Shown here one piece after another: positions 11,400 through 22,061 of a stretch of DNA of 64,000 bases. Positions within the stretch are counted from its first letter, which is position 1. Every line of letters starts with the position of its first letter. The position numbers and the translations under genes were made by a program. Source of the DNA: Xylanimonas ulmi (lineage in GTDB: Bacteria; Actinomycetota; Actinomycetes; Actinomycetales; Cellulomonadaceae). The stretch lies in assembly GCF_004216535.1 (NCBI RefSeq), contig NZ_SGWX01000001.1:496001-560000 (forward strand), read 5' to 3'. Under the pieces are notes generated by a model, which did not search any database, was not told where the DNA came from, and saw nothing but the letters and a program-made list of their open reading frames with translations.

Positions 11400-11409
11400 C
11401 CGTTCGGAC

Positions 11410-11429
11410 GGTCGAGCCTGTCGAGGCCC
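11410..11429. repeat. Single palindromic repeat unit after lpdA
   Basis: GGTCGAGCCTGTCGAGGCCC is a GC-richer variant of the dispersed repeat. It begins 11 bp after the lpdA stop and just before the main terminator. Confidence 0.7.
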
Positions 11430-11437
11430 GGGGAAGG

Positions 11438-11471
11438 GGCCCGGATCTGCGAGTTTTCGCAGGTCCGGGCC
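11438..11471 (+). terminator. Terminator of lpdA
   Basis: A 15-bp stem runs from GGCCCGGATCTGCGA (11438-11452) to TCGCAGGTCCGGGCC (11457-11471). It has a single G-U pair, a GTTT loop and a pyrimidine-rich tail TCTTTCTGTCT, giving a classic intrinsic terminator. Confidence 0.92.
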
Positions 11472-11542
11472 TCTTTCTGTCTCCGGGGAGAGAAGGAGCC
11501 CTCGAGGCGCGGTCCGTTCCCTGATATCCCGGCGGCCGCCTG

Positions 11543-11878
11543 TCACTCCGGGCGGCTCGAGGGCAACGGGTGGAGGTAGCCCCACGTCACGAGCGGCTGC
11601 ATGGCTTCGATGAGCTCCTCGCCGAGGGGGGTGAGCGTGTACTCGGAGTAGGCAGGGGTCGTCGGCACGATGGTTCGCGTGACCAGTCCGTGGGCCGCGA
11701 GCTCCTTGAGCCGCTGGGACAGCAGGCGGTCCGAGAGCCCGGCGACGACGCGAAGGATCTCGCCGAAGCGCCGCGAGCCTCGGGAGATTGCGAGCATGAT
11801 CGCGCCCGTCCAGCGCTTGCCGACGATCTCCATGGCTGACTGGAAGGCGCGGCACGCCTCGTCGTCGAGGATCTGCAT
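11543..11878 (-). CDS. HxlR-family transcriptional regulator
   Basis: A 111-residue winged-helix protein. DDEACRAFQSAMEIVGKRWTG, SRRFGEILRVVAGLSDRLLS, QRLKELAAHGLVTRTIV and YSEYTLTPLGEELIEAM are the ordered HxlR segments. The N-terminal Cys sits where redox-sensing HxlR members carry their reactive cysteine. ATG at 11878 was chosen. An in-frame GTG at 11911 would add 11 residues but overlaps the inverted repeat thought to be its operator, so the start is uncertain. It is divergent from an LLM oxidoreductase gene, its likely target. Confidence 0.85.
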   Translation of the reverse strand: MQILDDEACRAFQSAMEIVGKRWTGAIMLAISRGSRRFGEILRVVAGLSDRLLSQRLKELAAHGLVTRTIVPTTPAYSEYTLTPLGEELIEAMQPLVTWGYLHPLPSSRPE

Positions 11879-11909
11879 GGCGCTGGCGGGACGGCTCAAG
11901 CGTGAGGAC

Positions 11910-11926
11910 ACTTACGAATGGTAAGT
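11910..11926. promoter_or_regulatory. Candidate HxlR operator
   Basis: ACTTACGAATGGTAAGT consists of perfect 6-bp arms ACTTAC/GTAAGT with a 5-base spacer, between the divergent hxlR and LLM oxidoreductase genes. This geometry fits known HxlR-family sites. Confidence 0.65.
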
Positions 11927-11975
11927 ACCTAATGGGATCCTTGGCAACAGCGCGCCCCAGGCGCAACCTGGGCTC

Positions 11976-12923
11976 ATGACCGACTACGGGCACACGCTTC
12001 GATTCGGGGTCAGCATCGACCCCTCCGCCTCAGACTTTCCAGAGGCGCTCAGCCTCGCGCGCCAGGCAGACGCAGCGGGCCTCGACCTGCTCGCCGTGCA
12101 GGACCATCCGTACCAGGAGTCGCACCTCGACGCCTGGACGATGCTCACCCAACTCGTCGCGCACACCGAGCGCATCGCTGTGATGGGCGATGTGCTCGAC
12201 CTGCAGCTCCGTCCGCCGGCTCTCACGGCGAAGGCGGCAGCATCCCTCGCCGTGATGAACGGGGGTCGGGTGCACCTCGGCGTCGGCGGCGGCGCAAGCG
12301 CACAGGGCGTTGCCGCGATGGGCGGGCGTCCGCGGAGCGCGGGCGACACCATCGCGTTCACCGAGGAGGCGATCGGCATCATGCGGGGCGCACTCGAGGG
12401 CGGCCTGGTCCAGGCCTCGTCCGAGCAACATCAGGTCGCCGGCTACCGGGCCGGGCCGATTCCCCCGGAACACGTGGGCATCTGGCTGGGCGGCCAGCGG
12501 CCACGCATGCTCCGCGTCATGGGGCGGGTCGCCGACGGCTGGATCTCACCCCTGAACATCTACGTCGCCCCGCACGAGGTTCCCGAGAAGCAGGAGATCA
12601 TCGACGACGCGGCCACGGCCGCAGGGCGCGACCCGAAGGACATCCGCCGCATCTACAACGTACTTGGCGCCATCGGGCCGTTCCGCGGCGGGCAGGGTCT
12701 TGTCGGCCCCGTGGCCGAGTGGGTCGAGACCCTCGCGTCCTGGGCCGTCGACCTCGGCTTCGACACGTTCGTGTTCTGGCCGATCACTGATGCGGAGGAC
12801 CAGGTGCGGCTGTTCTCCGACCTCGTCGTCCCCGCGGTCAGGGACCGCGTCGCGTCACTGCGCGCCGAGCGTGGCACGACCCTTGCCGACGCCGACGCCG
12901 ACGCCGAGGGGAGCCTCGCATGA
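11976..12923 (+). CDS. LLM-class (probably F420-dependent) oxidoreductase
   Basis: A 315-residue luciferase-like barrel with LRFGVSIDPSA, ARQADAAGLDLLAVQDHPYQ, RVHLGVGGGASAQGVAAMGG and VGIWLGGQRPRMLRVMGRVADGW, close to F420-dependent reductases of the MSMEG/FGD type. It probably does hydride transfer on an unknown substrate. A small inverted repeat CCCAGG-N5-CCTGGG ends 4 bases before the ATG and no clear ribosome site is seen. Its stop overlaps the start of the next flavin oxidoreductase gene (ATGA), so both form an operon, likely controlled by the divergent HxlR regulator. Confidence 0.88.
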   Translation: MTDYGHTLRFGVSIDPSASDFPEALSLARQADAAGLDLLAVQDHPYQESHLDAWTMLTQLVAHTERIAVMGDVLDLQLRPPALTAKAAASLAVMNGGRVHLGVGGGASAQGVAAMGGRPRSAGDTIAFTEEAIGIMRGALEGGLVQASSEQHQVAGYRAGPIPPEHVGIWLGGQRPRMLRVMGRVADGWISPLNIYVAPHEVPEKQEIIDDAATAAGRDPKDIRRIYNVLGAIGPFRGGQGLVGPVAEWVETLASWAVDLGFDTFVFWPITDAEDQVRLFSDLVVPAVRDRVASLRAERGTTLADADADAEGSLA

Positions 12924-14296
12924 CTGGGCTCGCCGTGCCAGCGTCCTTGCGGGCCCGTGCCGTCGAGCCGGGGGACCGTCGATGGGAGGCTCTGCGCTCC
13001 ACGTACACGACGGCGCACGATCCGGCGCTGGTCCTCCTGCCTCGCACGTCCGAGGAGGTGGCCGACGCGCTGGTGTTCGCCGGCGGGTCCGGGCTGCCGG
13101 TCTCGGTCCGCAGCGGCGGTCACGGCCTGCACGGCCGTTCGTCGAACGACGGCGGAATCGTCGTCGATCTGTCGGTGATGGACGCGATCGAGGTGCTCGA
13201 CCGGGACGCGGGTCTCGTGCGCCTGCAGGCTGGCGCGCGCTGGGGGCGGGTCGCCGAGCGGCTCGCCCGAGACGGCCTCGCGATCAGCTCCGGCGACCAC
13301 GGCAACGTCGGTGTCGGTGGGCTCGCCACGGCGGGAGGCATCGGCTGGTTGACTCGCACCTACGGTCTGACCGTCGACCACGTGCGCGCAGCGACCGTCG
13401 TCCTGCCCGACGGGCGAGTCGTGCGCACCGACCCTGAGCACGAGCCTGATCTCCTGTGGGCAGTGCGAGGCGCGGGGGACAGCGTCGGGATCGTCACCGA
13501 CCTCGACATCGAGGCCATGCCCCTCGGCCTGGTCGGGATCGGTCAGGTCGCTGTGGCGGCCGACGCCGACGTGCTGCTCCGTTGGTCGCAGCACCTGCAG
13601 GGCGCGCCTCGCGACCTCACGGTGAACGGCCTGCTCAGCGGCTCGAGCGGCGGCGCAGTCCTGCAGATGACCGCCGTCGTCGCGAGCGACGAGCCCGACC
13701 GCGTCCGCGAGCTCCTCGAGCCGCTCGGCGATCTCGGTGGGAGGGTCCTCGGGATGCAGGCCCAGCTCGCGCCCTACACGGCACTCGTGTCCAGCGAACA
13801 TGCCCACGCCAACTACGGGCAGCAGCCCGCGATCACCACGAACCTGCTCCTGCCGACGCTCACCTCGGACAGCGCCCAGGTGTTGCTCTCCGTGGCGACG
13901 CACCCGGCCCGGCCATTCGTCCAGGTCCGCTCGCTGGGGGGTGCGACGCACGACGTGGCGCCCGAGGAGTCGGCGTTCCCGCACCGGAGCCAGAACGCGC
14001 TGACCACGCTCACGGTCTTCCCGCCTCAGACAGGCAGCGAGCTCGATGAGGTGGCAGCGCCTCTGCGTCCGTTCGGGACGGGGGCTTACCGCAACTTCGA
14101 GAGCCGGCCCGACGAGCGCACCTTCTGGGCGGCCTATCCCGGCGCGACAGGGGAGCGGGTGCTGGAGCTGCGCCGTCGATACGACCCTGAGGGGGTGCTG
14201 CGCCGACTGGACGCGCCGTCGCAGCCGGTCAGAGGCGACGGTCAGGTGGTCGGCTCGACACCGAACCAGAGCTCGTTGAACGCGATGCTGTCGTAG
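12920..14296 (+). CDS. FAD-binding oxidoreductase, berberine-bridge-enzyme-like
   Basis: A 458-residue VAO/PCMH-fold flavoprotein. The motif SVRSGGHGLHGRS carries the His that covalently binds FAD. The second covalent site of BBE enzymes (a Cys) is absent: GDHGNVGVGGLATAGGIGWL has no Cys, so a single 8-alpha-histidyl link is predicted. The end RRYDPEGVLRRLDAPS corresponds to the usual C-terminal BBE motif; the last 22 or so residues are read through the antisense of the SnoaL-like gene and may not be conserved. It is coupled to the upstream LLM oxidoreductase by a 4-base overlap. The substrate is unknown. Confidence 0.87.
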   Translation: MTGLAVPASLRARAVEPGDRRWEALRSTYTTAHDPALVLLPRTSEEVADALVFAGGSGLPVSVRSGGHGLHGRSSNDGGIVVDLSVMDAIEVLDRDAGLVRLQAGARWGRVAERLARDGLAISSGDHGNVGVGGLATAGGIGWLTRTYGLTVDHVRAATVVLPDGRVVRTDPEHEPDLLWAVRGAGDSVGIVTDLDIEAMPLGLVGIGQVAVAADADVLLRWSQHLQGAPRDLTVNGLLSGSSGGAVLQMTAVVASDEPDRVRELLEPLGDLGGRVLGMQAQLAPYTALVSSEHAHANYGQQPAITTNLLLPTLTSDSAQVLLSVATHPARPFVQVRSLGGATHDVAPEESAFPHRSQNALTTLTVFPPQTGSELDEVAAPLRPFGTGAYRNFESRPDERTFWAAYPGATGERVLELRRRYDPEGVLRRLDAPSQPVRGDGQVVGSTPNQSSLNAMLS

Positions 14297-14658
14297 AAGG
14301 CGGTGCCGTCGACGACCAACCCGCCCTTGAGCCGCATGACCCAGGCATAGGTGTTCTCGTACGTCGTTCCGGCAGTGGTGGTGCCTTGTCCGTCCCAGAG
14401 GACCACCACCGTTCCGGTCGACTCGTCCGCATGCACGCTCCGCACGGCGACCGGCCGGAACGGCGCGTCGGCGCTGAAGCGCCGCGCGAACGGGATGAGG
14501 ACTTCGTCCGTGAAGGCTTGGCGGCTCGCGTAGCGACCCGCGGACGTCGAGCGGCCCGTGATCTCCCACGTCATGTCGACGGAGAAGATCCGGCTGACGT
14601 GCGCCCTGCCTGCGACCCAGTCGTCGAATGCCGCTGTGACGATCTCCCGGTTGCCCAT
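14242..14658 (-). CDS. SnoaL/NTF2-like protein
   Basis: A 138-residue alpha+beta cone protein: MGNREIVTAAFDDWVAG helix, FSVDMTWEITG, RFSADAPFRPVAVRSVHADE and YENTYAWVMRLKGGLVVDG sheet strands. Such proteins act as cyclases, hydrolases or binding proteins for aromatic and polyketide-like molecules. Its ATG shares one base with the stop of the upstream SDR gene on the same strand (TGATG), so the two are coupled. Its 3' end overlaps the convergent FAD oxidoreductase gene by 55 bp, which is unusual. Confidence 0.82.
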   Translation of the reverse strand: MGNREIVTAAFDDWVAGRAHVSRIFSVDMTWEITGRSTSAGRYASRQAFTDEVLIPFARRFSADAPFRPVAVRSVHADESTGTVVVLWDGQGTTTAGTTYENTYAWVMRLKGGLVVDGTAFYDSIAFNELWFGVEPTT

Positions 14659-15533
14659 CACGTCCCTCCTGGTCTGGTGTGGGAACCGCGCGACGAGGAC
14701 CCGTCCGGCCGCGGCGAGGTGGTCGGAGAGTAGGGTCGCAGAGCGTCGAGAGTCCACGACATGAGGGCGTCGCCGAGGTCGGCGTCGAGTGCCTCGTCGC
14801 TCGGTTGAACGAGCCGGCCGTCGTCGAAGTAGTCGCCACCACGCGCGTCGTCCATGAGCGCGCTGATGACGTTGCGGGCGCCTCGGCCGACGTCGGCTCC
14901 CTGCGCGCCGAACATGGCGTGGAGCAGGGAGGTGCTGATCACTCCCGGGTTCAGGCATACGGGGGTCACTGGGAGGTCTGCCAGCCGTTCGGCGGCCAAC
15001 CATCGGGTATAGAGAATGATGGCGAGCTTTGACCGGGCGTAGGCGCGCACCTGGTCGTAGTCCTGCTCGAGCTCGATGTCTGGGAGGTCGAGGCTCGTCA
15101 TCCGGTGCGTTGCGGAGGCGAGGTTGACGACGCGTGCTCCGTCCGCCAGGGCGGGGAGCAGATGCTCGGTCAGCAGCACCATCGCGAGATAGTTCACTTG
15201 GAGCGTGCGTTCGTGGCCGTCAGGGGTGACGCGCCGCTGGAGGGCTCCCGGGACTGCCGCGTTGTTGATCACCGCGTCGACGGGCCCCGCTGCGGTCTCG
15301 ACCATGGTGTGCGCGGCTGCGGCGACCTCGCTCAGGTTCTCGAAGTCGCACGAGACGTAGCGCACTGCGGCAGTGCCCGCGCTCAGCGCGCGCAAGGCGC
15401 CCTGCGCGTCGTGCGTGGACTCCGGGCCCTGGACGACGACGCGACGTGCCGTCATGGCCAGTCGGCGTGCGGTCTCGAGGCCGATGCCGCTCGTGGCGCC
15501 GGTGACAATCAACGTGGCTGCGTCTGGACTCAT
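14658..15533 (-). CDS. Short-chain dehydrogenase/reductase (catalytically intact)
   Basis: A 291-residue classical SDR with the cofactor motif TGATSGIGLETARRLA, VINNAAVPG (NNAG equivalent), the catalytic serine in VVNLASATHR and the YARSK pair. It resembles retinol-dehydrogenase-like SDRs, which have an insertion between Ser and Tyr. The ATG at 15533 begins just before the Rossmann fold. It is the first gene of an operon with the SnoaL-like gene. The start region is divergent from another SDR operon, with a 247-bp gap in which no clear operator was found. Confidence 0.88.
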   Translation of the reverse strand: MSPDAATLIVTGATSGIGLETARRLAMTARRVVVQGPESTHDAQGALRALSAGTAAVRYVSCDFENLSEVAAAAHTMVETAAGPVDAVINNAAVPGALQRRVTPDGHERTLQVNYLAMVLLTEHLLPALADGARVVNLASATHRMTSLDLPDIELEQDYDQVRAYARSKLAIILYTRWLAAERLADLPVTPVCLNPGVISTSLLHAMFGAQGADVGRGARNVISALMDDARGGDYFDDGRLVQPSDEALDADLGDALMSWTLDALRPYSPTTSPRPDGSSSRGSHTRPGGT

Positions 15534-15780
15534 GGCGCTTCTCCGACGAGGTCGAGGCTGCGGGTGCTGGCCTGGGTCAGGTCTCAGGCTTATCGCTCCG
15601 GTCATCACCCGTACCCGGGACTGCCTGGGGTTGCTCCCGTGTCTCGGTTGCGCGGGCGCCGGGGTTCCGTCCCCGCCGGTGCCCAACTCCGGGCGGCTTC
15701 GGCATGCTGACGATGGCGAGAGCCTGTGCTCGCCGTCTCATGCGCGGCGGAGTTACCGGGCGACGAGAAGAGGTGGAGCC

Positions 15781-16575
15781 GTGCCATTGGTGCAGGACTC
15801 ACGGCTGGTCGACGAGCCGTTCCCCTTGCGGGGGCGGACGGCGGTCGTCACCGGGGCGGCGTCGGGTATCGGGCGTGCGGTTGCTCGCGCGCTGGCGCAC
15901 ACGGGCGCCCGGGTGGCGGCGCTCGACGTCGACGACGCAGGTCTTGACCTGGTCAGCACGCTCGACGAGGAGGGCGCGGTGGGGTCGGTGGTCGGCGTCC
16001 GGGCGGACGTGACCGACCGACGCCGTCTCGAGGCGGTGCGGGGAGAGGTCCGGCGCCGTCTGGGACCGGCTGATCTCGTCGTCGCGAACGCGGGCGTGAT
16101 GTTCGGCGGGCCGTTCGAACTCTCCGACGTGGGGGAGTGGGACCAGATGATCGCCGTCAACGTGATGGGCGTGCTGAACACCGCCCGGGTCTTCGTGGAA
16201 GACCTTCTCGCCGCCGCGGACAAGGGTCGGTCCACCGACCTCGTGATCGTCGGGTCGGTCGCATCCCATCTTCTCCTCGCGGGCTTCTCGGTGTACTCGT
16301 CGACGGCGGCCGCGCGCGCCCAGCTGGCCCGCTCGCTGCGTGCGGAGCTCTCGGACCGCGGGGTGCGTGTTCGGCACATCGAGCCGGGAACCACGACGAC
16401 CGGTCTGGGCCGCGGCATCAGTGACCCTCGAGCCCGCGAGAGCCTTGAGCGTATGCGCGCGGTCCGCGATCCCCTGACCCCGGCGGACGTCGCCGACGCC
16501 GTCGTCTTCTCGGCGTCGCTGCCGGTCGGAGTCAATCTCGCCGAGGCCGTGGTCCTGCCCACCAGGCAGGGATGA
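15781..16575 (+). CDS. SDR-fold protein lacking the catalytic lysine
   Basis: A 264-residue Rossmann protein. TGAASGIG (24-31) and VANAGVM (102-108) are intact, so a nucleotide can probably bind, and the Ser in VIVGSVAS is present. The YxxxK motif reads Y172-S-S-T-A176, with alanine in place of the essential lysine. It may be a binding or regulatory protein, or may work by another route. GTG at 15781 has AGGTGGA upstream. It is followed 4 bases later by a second, even more degenerate SDR and then nhaA, all in one operon. Confidence 0.85.
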   Translation: MPLVQDSRLVDEPFPLRGRTAVVTGAASGIGRAVARALAHTGARVAALDVDDAGLDLVSTLDEEGAVGSVVGVRADVTDRRRLEAVRGEVRRRLGPADLVVANAGVMFGGPFELSDVGEWDQMIAVNVMGVLNTARVFVEDLLAAADKGRSTDLVIVGSVASHLLLAGFSVYSSTAAARAQLARSLRAELSDRGVRVRHIEPGTTTTGLGRGISDPRARESLERMRAVRDPLTPADVADAVVFSASLPVGVNLAEAVVLPTRQG

Positions 16576-16579
16576 GCCG

Positions 16580-17392
16580 ATGGGTGTGACGGGCGGCAAG
16601 GATCGGGTCGTGGTGGTGACCGGCGCCTCGCACGGCGTCGGCGTCGAGACCGCCGCCGAGCTCCTCGGGCAGGGTGCGAACGTGGTCCTCGCGGAGAGCG
16701 ACCGGGCGTGGCGCGCCTCACGCGTGCGCGAGCTCGTCGAGGCGTTCGGCCGCGACCGGGTCCTCGCGCAGCGTGTCGACGTCACGGACGCGTTCGCGCT
16801 GTTGGAGCTGCGCGACACCGTGCACGAGCGATTCGGGACCGTGGACGCGGTCGTCGTCGGCGTCGGGGTGGCGTCCTGGGACGCGTTCGAGGACGCCGTC
16901 CCGGGGGAGTGGGCGAGCATGCTGAACACGAACGTCTCGGGGATGCTTCAGACCGCGCACGTCTTCGCCCGGGACCTGATCGAGAGCGCCACCGACGGGG
17001 TCGCGGACCTGCTGTTCGTCGGCGCGCTCGTGGGGTCGGTCGCGTACCCGCGATGGTCCGTCTTCGCCGCGGTGTCCGCGGCTATCGGGCAGCTGGCCGT
17101 GAGCCTGCGGCAGGAGCTCGGTCCGCGCGGCGTCAGGGTGCACCAGGTGCAGCCCGGGCTCACGGAGGTCGACGGGTTCGGATACGACGGCAACGCCCGC
17201 ACCCGGCGCGCCTGGAACTCGCTCATCGCGGACCTGCCCCCTGTCCCGGTCACGACGGTCGCCCACGTGATCACCGCCGCGCTACAACTGCCCGCGCACG
17301 TCAACCTGGCGGACATGGTGATCATCCCGACCGGCCAGGACGCTCGGCTGCCGACCCGACTCGGCGTCGACATCGGGGAGAGCCGCCGGTGA
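16580..17392 (+). CDS. Degenerate SDR-fold protein (catalytic residues lost)
   Basis: A 270-residue paralogue of the preceding SDR, similar along its whole length. The cofactor loop TGASHGVG (14-21) is kept, but the NNAG position is GVGV, the catalytic serine region reads VGALVGS, and the YxxxK motif is F162-A-A-V-S166. Tyr and Lys are both gone, so ordinary dehydrogenase activity is very unlikely. It could pair with the upstream SDR as a heteromer. Its stop overlaps the GTG start of nhaA (GTGA), so the three are translated together. Confidence 0.82.
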   Translation: MGVTGGKDRVVVVTGASHGVGVETAAELLGQGANVVLAESDRAWRASRVRELVEAFGRDRVLAQRVDVTDAFALLELRDTVHERFGTVDAVVVGVGVASWDAFEDAVPGEWASMLNTNVSGMLQTAHVFARDLIESATDGVADLLFVGALVGSVAYPRWSVFAAVSAAIGQLAVSLRQELGPRGVRVHQVQPGLTEVDGFGYDGNARTRRAWNSLIADLPPVPVTTVAHVITAALQLPAHVNLADMVIIPTGQDARLPTRLGVDIGESRR

Positions 17393-19290
17393 CTGCGACG
17401 CCGATCCGGCTGAGGGGCGCGGTGTCGCACGAGAGGCTACAGCGGCTCTCACGGTCCTCCGCCGCCGCAGCCGGCGCTCTGCTCCTCGCGACGTTGTGCG
17501 CCCTGGTGTGGGCCAACGTCCCGGGTGGAACGTACGACGCCCTCTGGCACGCCGAGGCTGAGATCGCGATCGGTGGAGCCGAGCTCCGGCTCGACCTGCG
17601 GCACTGGGTCAACGACGGACTGATGACCCTCTTCTTCCTCCTCGTGTCGCTCGAAGTCAAGCACGCGTTCGCGCTCGGCGAGCTGCGAGACCGGGCCCGT
17701 GCTCGCCTGCCGGTGTTCGCGGCCGTCGCAGGCCTCATCGTCCCCGCGCTGCTCTTCCTCGTGGTGATGTCGCTCGGCGACGGGGACCCGCGCGCCGTCG
17801 GCGCGTGGGGAGCGGTCATCTCGACCGACACGGCGTTCGCTCTGGGCCTCTTGGCGCTGGTCGGCCGCTCCGCACCGCCGGCGCTGCGGCTCTTCATCTT
17901 GACGCTCGCCGTCGTCGACGACGTCGGCGCGCTGGCCGTCGTGGCGGTGGCCTTCACTGACGACCTCGCTGTCATCCCGATGGCCGTCGCCGCTCTCGCG
18001 CTCGTCGGTCTCGCGGTCCTGTCCCGGATAGGCGTGTGGCGGGGCCCGGTGTATCTCGCGGTGGCGGTGGTCGCATGGCTCGCCTTCCTCGCGTCCGGGG
18101 TCCACGCGACCGTCGCAGGCGTCGCCATCGGTCTCGTCCTCCCGGTCCACGCACCGCGCCGCGAACGTGTGCAGGAGGCCGCGACCAGCGCGCGCGAGTT
18201 CTCCCGGGCGCCGAACCCGCGGCGTGGACGAGACGCGACCCTTCGCATCGCGCGGGCGGTGTCCGTCAACGAGCGGCTGCAGACCCTCTTCGGCCCGTAC
18301 GTCAACCTCCTCGTCGTGCCGGTCTTCGCGCTGGCGAATGCCGGCGTCGTGCTCGACGGCCCGTCGCTGCTCGGCGCTGCGACGTCCACCTTGACCTGGG
18401 CGGTCGTGGTCGGCCTGGTCGTCGGCAAGTTCGTGGGCGTGGTATGCGGGGTCGGCGCCGCCCTCGCGCTGGGCGCGGCGCGGCTCGCCCCTGGTCTGCA
18501 CGTGAGGCACGTCGCCGCGGCGGGCGCGATCTCGGGGATGGGTTTCACGATCTCGCTGTTCATCGTCGATCTCTCGCTCGACGACGCCGAGACGCAGAGC
18601 CAGGCACGGATCGGTGTGCTCGCCGCGACCGTCGTGGCGGCGGCGCTGTCCTCGGCGGTGTTCGCGGTCGCTCGCCGCCGCGATCGGCGGGCGGGCGACG
18701 AGACGCCGCGCCTCCTGCGGCCCGTCGATCCGGCCCGGGACCACCTCCGGGGGCCCGCCGACGCGCCCAGCCAGCTCGTCGTCTACGCGTCCTTCGCCTA
18801 CTCGACTGCTGGACGGTTCGAGGAGCTCTTGGATGAGTTGAGGGAGCGGCTCGGTGATCGACTGCTCATCGTGTTCCGGCACCTACCGACGGCGGACCCG
18901 GTCGCGCTCGAGGCCGCCCAGGCAAGTGAGGCGGCTGCCTCTCAGGGGCGGTTCTGGGAGATGCGCGACGCGCTCGCGCGGGCCGGTGGACAGCTCACCT
19001 CACGAGAGGTCCGACGGTGCGCGGCCCGTGCCGGCCTCAACGTCGACCGGGTCGAGGACGCGGTCCAGAGCGGTCGTCACCTCGCGCGCGTCACCGAGGA
19101 CGCTGTCGACGCCGAGGCGATCGGCTCCGGCGAACCCCCTCAGATCTTCGTCAACGACCGCCTCTATCAGGGGCCGGTCGACATCGATGACCTCGAGGCA
19201 CAGCTCGAGTCCGCTCCCGTCGCGCCGGCCGCGCCGCAGCACGAGAGGCAGGTCGCCCGGCGCGCCCGCCCGACCGTCTACTCCTGGTGA
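17389..19290 (+). CDS. nhaA: NhaA Na+/H+ antiporter fused to a DsbA-like domain without cysteines
   Basis: A 633-residue protein. Residues 1-440 are an NhaA antiporter: the pore aspartates appear in TDTAFALGLLALVG and LAVVDDVGALAVV, and the TM10 lysine in VVGLVVGKFVGV, so ion exchange should be intact. From about residue 460 follows a DsbA/thioredoxin-like domain, a fusion known in actinobacteria. Here the active-site segment reads YASFAYSTAGRF (466-477), with neither cysteine of the usual CPxC, while the later cis-Pro region GEPPQIFVNDRLYQG remains. GTG at 17389 overlaps the SDR stop. The 3' end overlaps the convergent LAL regulator gene by 13 bp. Confidence 0.92.
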   Translation: MTATPIRLRGAVSHERLQRLSRSSAAAAGALLLATLCALVWANVPGGTYDALWHAEAEIAIGGAELRLDLRHWVNDGLMTLFFLLVSLEVKHAFALGELRDRARARLPVFAAVAGLIVPALLFLVVMSLGDGDPRAVGAWGAVISTDTAFALGLLALVGRSAPPALRLFILTLAVVDDVGALAVVAVAFTDDLAVIPMAVAALALVGLAVLSRIGVWRGPVYLAVAVVAWLAFLASGVHATVAGVAIGLVLPVHAPRRERVQEAATSAREFSRAPNPRRGRDATLRIARAVSVNERLQTLFGPYVNLLVVPVFALANAGVVLDGPSLLGAATSTLTWAVVVGLVVGKFVGVVCGVGAALALGAARLAPGLHVRHVAAAGAISGMGFTISLFIVDLSLDDAETQSQARIGVLAATVVAAALSSAVFAVARRRDRRAGDETPRLLRPVDPARDHLRGPADAPSQLVVYASFAYSTAGRFEELLDELRERLGDRLLIVFRHLPTADPVALEAAQASEAAASQGRFWEMRDALARAGGQLTSREVRRCAARAGLNVDRVEDAVQSGRHLARVTEDAVDAEAIGSGEPPQIFVNDRLYQGPVDIDDLEAQLESAPVAPAAPQHERQVARRARPTVYSW

Positions 19291-22061
19291 AGCGCACGCG
19301 CCAGCTCGTGCCGTGACGAGATGCCGAGCTTCGCGAACACGTTGCCCAGGTGGTATTCGACGGTGCGCGGGCTGATGTAGAGACGAGCCCCGATCTCCGG
19401 GTTGGTCAGCCGCTCCCGCGCGAGGCGCGCGACGCGCGCCTCCTGCGGCGTGAGCCCGAGGCTTGTGGGCCCGACCGACGCAGGAGTCGGCAAGCCACAC
19501 GCGACGAGCTCCTGCGCCGCCCGCCGGCCGAAAGCCCGCATGCCCATCGACGTGAACATCCCGTGCGCCGCCGTCAGCTCGCGCCGAGCCGCGGAGCGGC
19601 GTCGGGCTCGCCTCAGCCACTCCCCGTAGAGCAGGTGGGCGCGCGCGAGCTCGACCCGCACCCGCGTGCCGGAGAGCTCCTCGACGGCCGTTCTGTACCA
19701 GTTCTCGGCGTCGGGACCGGGCGTGACGAGCGCGCGGCACCGCGCGGCCATCCCTGCGGCGAAACGCGTCCCGGCGTTGGCCGTCGCCTCCTCCACGCGG
19801 CGCATGGCGACCCGCGCCCGCTCGCCCTGGCCGGAGCGGGCCGCGGCCTCGATCAGCTCGACCGCCCCGAAGCCTGATGACCACAGCTCTTCCGGGTTGG
19901 CGCAGGCGACCATCGCCTCTCCCGCCGCCTCCCCGTACCGGCCCAGCGCGTTGCCGGTCACGGCGCCGGCCCAGGCCGCGACTGTCAGCCCGATGCCCTC
20001 ACCGGAGGCGGCAGCCTCGGTCCGGGCGACCTCGACGGCGGACGCCGCCTCGTCTGCGCCCTGGAGCGCGAGAACTGCGAGGGACACGTAGCGGCTGATC
20101 GGCGCGTCGGTCACCTCCGAGAGCGCGGCGACCTCGTCGAGGGCGCGCACTGCTTCGGCGAACTCGCCGGTGCCGGCGGCGACGCCGACGCGTGTGTTGA
20201 GCGCGATCGGGAGGATCGCCAGCGCTCCGGCGTCTCGGGCGAGCGCGACGTGCTTCCGGGAGAGCTCGTCCCAGGCGGCGTCATCCCATACGGCGAGTGC
20301 GACATGGCTCGCGAACCACAGCCAGCGCAGGCCGTCGCGCGGGTCGAGGTCGTCCGCCCCGAACGCCTCGAGCGCACGGCGGACTGCGGTCGCCCCCGCC
20401 GCATGGCCACCGGTCACGGTGAGTGCGAGGCCGTCCATCAAGAGGTCGGGGGCACGTGTCGGTCCGTCCGGTGGCGGCGCGTCGCGCGCCGCCAGAGCGA
20501 CGTCGCGCAGGCCGACCGGGTCCGCCAGGCGTCCGGCCACCGTCGCAGACGCGAGGGCCTCGAGGTAGGTCTCCCGCGCGAGAGAACGATCGAGAGGCTC
20601 GAGACGGCGGGCTGCGTCAAGGATCTGTGCCGTCGTGCCGGGCCCGCGGTGCGTGACGAAGGCGATCTGTGCGCGCAAGCGCTCGACGCGGGCGGTCTGC
20701 AGCGGTTGAAGAGGGCCGCCCTCAGCCCGGGCGAGGAGGTCGAGCGCGGCGTTCGTGCCGCCGGCCTCGAAGCGTCGCTGGGCTGACGCGAGCAGGCGAG
20801 AGGACCGTCGCTCGGGGTCGGGTGTGAGCAGTGCGGACTGCTCGAGGAAGGCAGCCGACGCCGCCACCCCTCCGCGAGCCCGCGCCCTCTCCGCGGAGGT
20901 CTCGAGCTCGAGGGCGACGCGCTCGTCCGGGCGAACCGTGCCCCGCGCGGCGTGCCAGGCGCGGCGGTCAGGGTCGGTCCTTGGGTCGGTCGCGGCGGCG
21001 AGGGCGAGATGCGCCTGGACGCGCTGCCGCGGGGTCGCGCTCCGGTAGGCGGCGGAGCGGACGAGCGGATGCCGGAACCGCACCCAGGTGTCGACTGAGA
21101 GCAGCGACGCAGCGGCTTCGAGTTGGTCGACACCTATCTCGAGGCCAGCCTTCCCCACCGCGCGCCACAGCAGGGCGGGGTCTCCGGTGGGGTCTGCCGC
21201 GGCGAGGACCAGGAGTTGCTGCGCCGGCGGCGCCAACTCAGCCATCTCCTCGCGGAAGGACGCCTCGATCCTGTCGGTGATCTGCACCGCCGACGGGAGG
21301 CCGAACCCTCCTGCGGTATCGGTCAACGTCGCCGAGCGGCCAAAGGTCGTGATTGCCAGCGGGTTGCCGCCGGCCTCCGAAAGAACACGATCGCTGACCT
21401 GCGGATCGAGGCGGCCGTGCACCGATGCCTCAAGGAGCGCGGCCGCGTCCGTTCTGCCCAGGCCGCCGAGGGTCACGGAGGGCAGGCTGCGGAACGCTGA
21501 CCTGTCGACGACCGCGCGCGTGGTCGCCAGGACCGCGACAGGCTCCGCGACCAGGCGACGCGTCGCAAAGACGATTGCCTGCGCTGACGCCGCGTCCACC
21601 CACTGGGCGTCGTCCACGAGGCAGAGGATCGGGGCGTCCGCGGCGGACGCGGCCAGGAGGTTGAGCACGGCAAGACCGACGACGAGTTGGTCGGGCGCGG
21701 GGCCGGTGGCGCGGCCCAATGCCACGTGAAGTGCTGCGCGCTGCGGCTCCGGCAGGGCCCCGTAGGCGTCGAGCATGGGCGCGCAGAACTGGTGGAGCGC
21801 CGAGTACGGGAGCTCCATCTCCGACTGCGCGCCGGTCACACGAAGCGTGCGGAAGCCGTCGGCCGCGGCCGCGGCCACGTCCAACAGCGCTGACTTTCCC
21901 ATGCCCGGCTCGCCTCGTACCACGAGAGCCGCGCTTGACCCCCGCCGGGCTACGGCGAGCAGCCCGAGCAGACTGGACTGCTCCGACCGCCTGCCAAAGA
22001 GCCTCGGTCCGCCCTCTCGTGACGCGCGGGGCGCTCGTTCGCCGTCCTGGCTCACGGACAT
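19278..22061 (-). CDS. LuxR-family regulator with AAA ATPase domain (LAL type)
   Basis: A 927-residue cytosolic regulator. The N-terminal STAND/AAA ATPase has Walker A GEPGMGKSALLD and Walker B LCLVDDAQWVD. A long alpha-helical, Ala-rich middle region follows, of the TPR-like kind found in LAL proteins. The C-terminal LuxR HTH reads LTPQEARVARLARERLTNPE then YISPRTVEYHLGNVFAKLG. ATG at 22061 was preferred; an in-frame start at 22115 adds 18 residues. LAL proteins activate pathway-specific genes in actinobacteria, and the adjacent redox genes are reasonable targets, which is inference from position alone. Confidence 0.9.
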   Translation of the reverse strand: MSVSQDGERAPRASREGGPRLFGRRSEQSSLLGLLAVARRGSSAALVVRGEPGMGKSALLDVAAAAADGFRTLRVTGAQSEMELPYSALHQFCAPMLDAYGALPEPQRAALHVALGRATGPAPDQLVVGLAVLNLLAASAADAPILCLVDDAQWVDAASAQAIVFATRRLVAEPVAVLATTRAVVDRSAFRSLPSVTLGGLGRTDAAALLEASVHGRLDPQVSDRVLSEAGGNPLAITTFGRSATLTDTAGGFGLPSAVQITDRIEASFREEMAELAPPAQQLLVLAAADPTGDPALLWRAVGKAGLEIGVDQLEAAASLLSVDTWVRFRHPLVRSAAYRSATPRQRVQAHLALAAATDPRTDPDRRAWHAARGTVRPDERVALELETSAERARARGGVAASAAFLEQSALLTPDPERRSSRLLASAQRRFEAGGTNAALDLLARAEGGPLQPLQTARVERLRAQIAFVTHRGPGTTAQILDAARRLEPLDRSLARETYLEALASATVAGRLADPVGLRDVALAARDAPPPDGPTRAPDLLMDGLALTVTGGHAAGATAVRRALEAFGADDLDPRDGLRWLWFASHVALAVWDDAAWDELSRKHVALARDAGALAILPIALNTRVGVAAGTGEFAEAVRALDEVAALSEVTDAPISRYVSLAVLALQGADEAASAVEVARTEAAASGEGIGLTVAAWAGAVTGNALGRYGEAAGEAMVACANPEELWSSGFGAVELIEAAARSGQGERARVAMRRVEEATANAGTRFAAGMAARCRALVTPGPDAENWYRTAVEELSGTRVRVELARAHLLYGEWLRRARRRSAARRELTAAHGMFTSMGMRAFGRRAAQELVACGLPTPASVGPTSLGLTPQEARVARLARERLTNPEIGARLYISPRTVEYHLGNVFAKLGISSRHELARALHQE

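Follow-up and report, generated by a model that had tools for sequence, protein, structure and literature searches.

A stretch of 64,000 nucleotides from the Xylanimonas ulmi genome (contig NZ_SGWX01000001.1, positions 496,001 to 560,000; referred to below as the window) carries a cassette of three genes, all on the + strand, whose products have kept the folds of their families and lost catalytic residues. Two encode paralogous proteins of the short-chain dehydrogenase/reductase (SDR) family and the third an NhaA-type antiporter with a C-terminal thioredoxin-like domain. SDR1 (15781..16575; 264 amino acids) starts with GTG, and its N-terminus read from that codon is conserved among the copies found in other genomes; it matches Pfam adh_short with E 3.9e-42. 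SDR2 (16580..17392; 270 amino acids; adh_short E 9.9e-33) follows after four bases, and the GTG start of nhaA (17389..19290; 633 amino acids; Na_H_antiport_1 E 3e-113, Thioredoxin_4 E 1.4e-11) overlaps the TGA stop of SDR2. The cassette thus spans the limits (15781-19290) given in a first-pass annotation of the window made from the sequence alone. The genome is a single contig of 3.97 Mb with three nhaA genes, and the other two end soon past the membrane domain and lack, by eye, a thioredoxin-like tail.

Folds kept and residues lost

Both SDR proteins have the sequence of the classical SDR fold (PF00106), a predicted Rossmann fold with a TGxxxGxG loop, and both lack the complete Asn-Ser-Tyr-Lys tetrad, with its YxxxK motif, of the classical enzymes. 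In the SDR1 of the window the motif reads YSSTA (Y172 to A176; 16294..16308, + strand), as the first-pass annotation had it, while Ser159, Tyr172 and Asn127 are kept. The loss is common to all four SDR1 copies found (YSSTA, YSATA, YAATA and YSATA), every one of which has Ala at 176. The corresponding motif of SDR2 is FAAVS (F162 to S166; 17063..17077, + strand), with Ala149 at the position of the catalytic Ser and Gly94 at that of the NAG asparagine; the cofactor loop is kept as TGASHGVG. The earlier account of SDR2, that Lys, Ser, the Asn and Tyr had gone and the loop had stayed, is thus right for the window but too general for Tyr, whose loss is confined to this copy; the motifs of the five copies are FAAVS, YSAVE (three) and YSAVS. 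In an alignment of 98 SDRs the YxxxK lysine is present in 89/89 non-cassette proteins and in none of the nine cassette proteins, which have Ala (4), Glu (3) or Ser (2) there, the last two being the residues of SDR2. Tyr is found in 89/89 and 8/9, and the catalytic Ser in 89/89 and 4/9, respectively, the five proteins without Ser being all five SDR2.

The nucleotide pocket has fared differently from the catalytic site. All nine cassette SDRs retain the glycine loop, Asp76 and Asn127, and position 49, the specificity position at the end of strand 2, is Asp in eight of them; for the window SDR2 two alignments differ, one placing Glu there and the other Ala. Among the closest YxxxK relatives the same position is Gly in 15 of 16, with one Ala, and a gap in three further rows. 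An acidic residue at the end of strand 2 favours NAD(H), the nicotinamide adenine dinucleotide, in classical SDRs, and the shift to Asp is consistent with a change to that cofactor. Structure prediction returned a complete SDR fold for SDR1 (mean predicted local distance difference test score, pLDDT, 91.2) and for SDR2 (mean pLDDT 87.6), the nearest solved fold to the latter being clavulanic acid dehydrogenase (2jah). We take K158 of 17beta-HSD14 to be the lysine of its YxxxK motif. The structures matched by SDR2 include the K158A mutant of that enzyme, which the extract of its entry gives as solved with NAD (6h0m).

The antiporter has a full-length NhaA membrane domain by PF06965 and TIGR00773 (282.1 bits against a cut-off of 254 for the latter), covering residues 21-423 (17449..18657, + strand). 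Its TDxAF and DD motifs and GK helix are intact (STDTAF, VVDDVGA and GK), which bears out the earlier statement that the pore residues are preserved; we take these to be the equivalents of D133, D163/D164 and K300 of E. coli NhaA. The tail (residues 451-607; 18739..19209, + strand) is by sequence a thioredoxin fold, scoring 45.3 bits against the Thioredoxin_4 cut-off of 23.2, 20.9 against the DSBA model, under its cut-off of 25.6, and matching DsbA-like PDB chains at E 6e-5 to 2e-3. It lacks the CxxC active site of a dithiol oxidoreductase. Where relatives have that site the window protein reads VVYASFAYSTAGRF (18778..18819, + strand). The absence of CxxC had been noted in the first-pass annotation, but its further statement that the domain has no cysteines does not hold, as Cys544 (codon 19018..19020, + strand) is present and is the sole Cys of the domain.

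A profile search of 220 genomes of the same actinobacterial family separates the five cassette antiporters (813-1196 bits) from all others among the matches listed (609 bits or less). CxxC is missing from all five cassette tails and kept in 59 of the 60 non-cassette fusions (25/25 and 34/35) that reach into the tail among the matches listed. The lone exception, L168 (G173:C12:68400-70800), has lost the second Cys and reads ECPFS. Cys544 is in 4/4 complete cassette copies and in 0/60 of the other fusions among the matches listed; the fifth copy ends before that site. A Fisher test of the CxxC loss gives 7e-7 with rows treated as independent, and as the loss was likely inherited from one event we do not rely on it. 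An SDR1- or SDR2-like neighbour was found in none of the 25 non-cassette fusions examined with about 1.5 kb of flanking sequence.

The residues that remain in SDR1 allow another reading, an unlikely one in our judgement, in which SDR1 and SDR2 together form an enzyme with changed chemistry, the lysine being replaced by Arg179, seven residues past the Tyr, or by SDR2, and NhaA supporting the pathway only through Na+ or pH. Ser, Tyr and Asn are retained in 4/4 SDR1, Arg179 is invariant in the same four where Val stands in 19/19 of the closest YxxxK relatives, and SDR1 is under purifying selection (below). Yet the lysine has gone from both paralogues and the Ser from 5/5 SDR2; the glycine-rich cofactor loop is retained, unlike in the halohydrin dehalogenases, which replaced it; and it would go unexplained why NhaA lost its CxxC in parallel.

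Distribution, descent and selection

The first-pass annotation proposed looking for the same trio in other genomes, and the trio recurs: it is complete in 4 of 221 genomes of the family (G000, which is that of the window, G018, G109 and G158; four genera), and SDR2-nhaA is present in a fifth, G219, on a contig of 4.9 kb that breaks off within nhaA, so that no call on SDR1 can be made there. By genus, the five fall into g1, g18, g20 (two genomes) and g21. Thirteen of the 221 genomes match the SDR1 profile at E <= 1e-50, the four true SDR1 scoring 473-526 bits and the next match 218; a search for SDR2 in 200 of the family genomes gave matches at E <= 1e-40 in four. No match was found in any of the ten other genomes of the window's genus. 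SDR2 adjoins nhaA in 5/5 loci and the trio is together in the 4/4 loci with a long enough contig. As in the window, the start codon of nhaA in G109 overlaps the stop of SDR2; gaps of 80, 47 and 56 bases separate the two genes in G018, G158 and G219, lengths that depend on start codons chosen by script.

The cassette looks like an accessory element, inherited patchily. It lies about 10 kb from leuD in the window and on a separate contig from leuD in G018 and G109. Beyond lpd (dihydrolipoyl dehydrogenase, named by eye) two genomes of the same genus carry other genes, and the stretch on that side may be an insertion hot spot. In one same-genus locus (L160:14832-16118) an integrase-like gene, identified by eye, adjoins lpd where the window has its oxidoreductase and cassette stretch (11400-19300). 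Further afield, no cassette was found in SDR1-profile samples of the order (396 genomes) and the phylum (396 genomes) or in an NhaA-profile sample of the class (394 genomes), samples that overlap and were searched at strict thresholds, so that absence outside the family is not proven. The matches outside the family keep their motifs: YxxxK in eight SDR1-profile matches (six from the order sample and two from the phylum sample) and CxxC in four NhaA-profile matches from the class sample. In a contig scan with its own gene calls, none of 80 loci, taken from at least 512 confirmed SDR1-matching loci, has nhaA beside the SDR gene. On plasmids there were nine matches to NhaA at an E limit of 1e-60 and three to SDR1 at 1e-30, all below 60% identity.

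In a maximum-likelihood tree of the 98 SDRs, SDR1 (99/95) and SDR2 (100/100) are each a clade and the two are sisters at 100/98. Both belong to a 28-row group (90/99, a branch that the program did not star) that also holds YxxxK enzymes from Streptomyces, Nocardia, Jiangella, Micromonosporaceae, Pseudonocardia and three genomes of the same order. The tree is rooted at its midpoint for drawing only, the program's length rule flags 20 of its end branches, that of the window SDR2 included, and it leaves out SDR matches of 60 bits or less or shorter than about 170 amino acids, as well as L103 and L114 from a set of which 13 loci were taken. As the two clades are sisters among YxxxK relatives, one duplication gave rise to both pseudoenzymes, and the lysine was most simply lost before it or along with it.

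Many of the closest YxxxK relatives are divergent from genes like those of MmyB-type regulators, which carry a ligand-binding domain. This, together with the Ser and Tyr of the substrate site that SDR1 retains, gives some room to the idea that the ligand of the SDR pair is a small organic molecule, a signal resembling a substrate, and that the pair, instead of reporting NADH/NAD+, either relays this signal to NhaA or merely scaffolds and stabilises the antiporter. The change at the specificity position in both paralogues suggests, on the contrary, selection on the nucleotide bound, and we regard the small-ligand proposal as improbable.

Selection was estimated as the ratio of nonsynonymous to synonymous substitution rates (dN/dS) by the Nei-Gojobori method, for which the high GC content makes dS rough. 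Among G018, G109 and G158 the ratio is 0.16-0.26 (SDR1), 0.24 (SDR2), 0.16-0.23 (membrane domain) and 0.27-0.28 (tail), to be compared with 0.32 for a neighbouring YxxxK SDR (one pair) and 0.62-0.71 for a gene with an Atu4866 domain described below. When G219 is one member of the pair the values are 0.27-0.38 (SDR2), 0.25-0.35 (membrane domain) and 0.25-0.41 (tail, over 67 codons); when the window is, they are 0.29-0.34 (SDR1), 0.48-0.66 (SDR2) and 0.29-0.46 (tail), at dS of 0.7-1.2. No stop codons were flagged in the compared frames, and all pairs stay below a dN/dS of 1. Judged by these ratios, SDR1 and SDR2 are under purifying selection.

Chance, or the decay of a single copy, was considered as the origin of the losses and rejected, for the four other cassette copies share them and no pair reaches a ratio of 1. 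The first-pass annotation had warned that homologues in the same context with YxxxK and CxxC, or a loss of synteny, would reduce the locus to one decaying copy; none of the cassette copies found keeps either motif and no loss of synteny was seen. That the window holds an old SDR-antiporter operon in a single, decaying copy, as the long branch of its SDR2 and the loss there of Tyr too might suggest, is therefore hardly credible in the face of the same losses, with open frames, in four other genomes.

Genes around the cassette

All four full loci have a YxxxK SDR no more than about 6 kb from the cassette. SDR3 (14658..15536, - strand; adh_short E 5.6e-25), divergent from SDR1 in the window and with its motif kept as YARSK, is found near the cassette in the window, G018 and G158, with 51-60% identity between copies; gene calling over 20 kb of G109 did not turn it up. 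In G018 and G109 the cassette has SDR4 nearby, which keeps YxxxK as YSGTK. Apart from SDR1 itself, nothing in the window genome matches the SDR1 profile at E <= 1e-50, the range of SDR4-type genes elsewhere, and the G158 contig is too short for SDR4 to be judged.

Such neighbours invite the suggestion that SDR1 and SDR2 are dead paralogues that tune an active SDR, SDR3 or SDR4, through a hetero-oligomer, the antiporter being merely co-expressed. Activation by a dead paralogue is known for the deoxyhypusine synthase of trypanosomatids, according to the excerpted text of PMC3663545. No single YxxxK SDR was found in all four loci, however, while nhaA is beside SDR2 in every one of the five and the loss of CxxC tracks the losses in the SDRs, and we hold this explanation to be improbable as well.

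A gene with an Atu4866 domain is divergent from SDR2 in the four non-window cassette loci. It encodes about 240 amino acids with the domain C-terminal and lies upstream of SDR2 (L009:11821-12570, L010:8808-9512, L011:262-963 and L117:1588-2304). By eye, the N-terminal part of the product looks like the outer sandwich of amidohydrolases with the catalytic barrel missing, and Pfam found Atu4866 alone in the three of the four copies that were scanned. A search of the window genome for Atu4866 gave no match; the control genomes were equally silent, so that its absence is not shown. An MmyB-type regulator lies 4 kb or less from the cassette in G018, G109 and G158, and none of the three PF17765 matches of the window genome falls in the window. 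In G109 and G158 the full regulator is followed by a short relative of the MmyB ligand domain (L010:14286-14822, in which PF17765 was found, and L011:6605-7091). Linkage of MmyB regulators to SDR genes has been published (PMC3406030, in extract). Just upstream of the SDR stretch of the window, a luciferase-like monooxygenase gene and an FAD (flavin adenine dinucleotide)-binding oxidoreductase gene are closely spaced (11976-14296).

A possible redox-gated antiporter

The reading that we prefer, with a probability of about 0.4, is that the operon encodes a redox-gated Na+/H+ antiporter of Kef-like design, in which SDR-fold subunits would bind NAD(H) without catalysis and gate transport. It keeps the core of the first-pass interpretation, because the cassette homologues share the losses and the adjacency holds, which favours nucleotide-binding SDR-fold pseudoenzymes tied to an antiporter; the cysteine-free tail of that interpretation has to be dropped. 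Redox-nucleotide sensing by the SDRs, and their control of NhaA, are inferred.

An ancestral YxxxK SDR, probably of NADP type and beside an MmyB-type regulator, would have been duplicated; the catalytic lysine would then have gone from both copies, which retained the nucleotide pocket of the Rossmann fold and moved towards NAD(H). The pair would have become established next to an NhaA with a cytosolic thioredoxin-like tail, from which CxxC was lost. NhaA tails face the cytosol by the known topology of NhaA, and cytosolic SDRs could therefore dock there. SDR1 and SDR2 may form a cytosolic hetero-oligomer that binds NAD+ or NADH without turnover and docks on the redox-inert tail, antiport being raised or lowered by the state of the nucleotide, with Cys544 as a possible second input, for thiols or electrophiles. 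In this full form, as a heteromeric NAD(H) sensor plugged into a dead tail and gating Na+/H+ exchange by NADH/NAD+ with the gained cysteine as thiol input, an independently built counterpart of Kef whose one-time enzyme parts have all given up their chemistry, the proposal is more doubtful than the gated antiporter as such.

Several observations weigh against a gated antiporter. SDR1 could have residual or changed catalysis, given its Ser, Tyr and Asn and the new invariant Arg179. The cofactor argument rests on the closest relatives, as position 49 is mostly Ala in the wider set of 89 non-cassette SDRs (Ala 46, Gly 22, Asp 8, Glu 1; nine acidic). The cassette is rare, in 5/221 family genomes, two of them incomplete (G158 74% and G219 84% complete), and its gene order is SDR1-SDR2-nhaA in the window as against SDR2-nhaA-SDR1 in G018, G109 and G158. 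The ratios for SDR2 and the tail are higher in the G219 pairs, and the window SDR2, which sits on a long branch (0.9) and also lacks Tyr, has the highest of the SDR ratios and may be under weaker constraint.

The closest parallel is with KefC-KefF and KefB-KefG, in which, too, a cation/proton antiporter has a soluble oxidoreductase-fold partner encoded in the same operon and carries a cytosolic domain, regulatory in Kef (PMC10224563, in extract). The excerpted text of the same source has it that the catalysis of KefF is not directly required for activation, that the soluble subunit is encoded 5' and that the genes of the operon typically overlap. The adjacent oxidoreductase-fold gene of Kef-type systems has its counterpart here in SDR2, next to nhaA in all five loci. 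The components differ. The antiporter is of the NhaA family and not of CPA2, its cytosolic domain is thioredoxin-like and not KTN/RCK, and two SDR paralogues with lost catalytic residues stand in place of one active quinone reductase with flavin mononucleotide; Pfam found neither CPA2 membrane nor KTN/RCK domains in the cassette, and in the antiporter only the NhaA and thioredoxin-fold domains. On our preferred reading the cassette would thus work like Kef without being a member of it.

In architecture the antiporter is one of the two-domain fusions of NhaA with a thioredoxin (DsbA-like) domain, from which it differs in having Cys544 and no CxxC. SDR1 and SDR2 likewise group with the classical SDRs linked to MmyB/MltR in actinomycetes, and differ from them in the lost lysine, the changed cofactor position and the tie to nhaA. 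We know of no SDR regulator of the NmrA, HSCARG/NMRAL1 or MAT2B type that regulates an antiporter. These proteins share with the cassette SDRs, for which the role is predicted, an SDR fold in a regulatory nucleotide-binding protein, HSCARG and NmrA being named as NAD(P)-sensing regulators in the excerpted text of PMC3793261; the cassette proteins are of another subfamily, and MAT2B keeps its YxxxK. The first-pass annotation knew of no such system. Open-access titles and abstract openings in PubMed Central on NhaA with a thioredoxin or DsbA tail, on NhaA-SDR operons, on SDR pseudoenzymes and on their pairing with an antiporter likewise yielded no description of such a unit, a record in print elsewhere being possible.

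If the proposal is true, the cassette would be a second, separately evolved coupling of an ion antiporter to the redox state of the cell, made from proteins without catalysis. It would also, to our knowledge, be the first role for SDR pseudoenzymes as subunits of an antiporter. The related YxxxK enzymes and the sister fusions with CxxC allow the degenerate and the complete proteins to be compared side by side.

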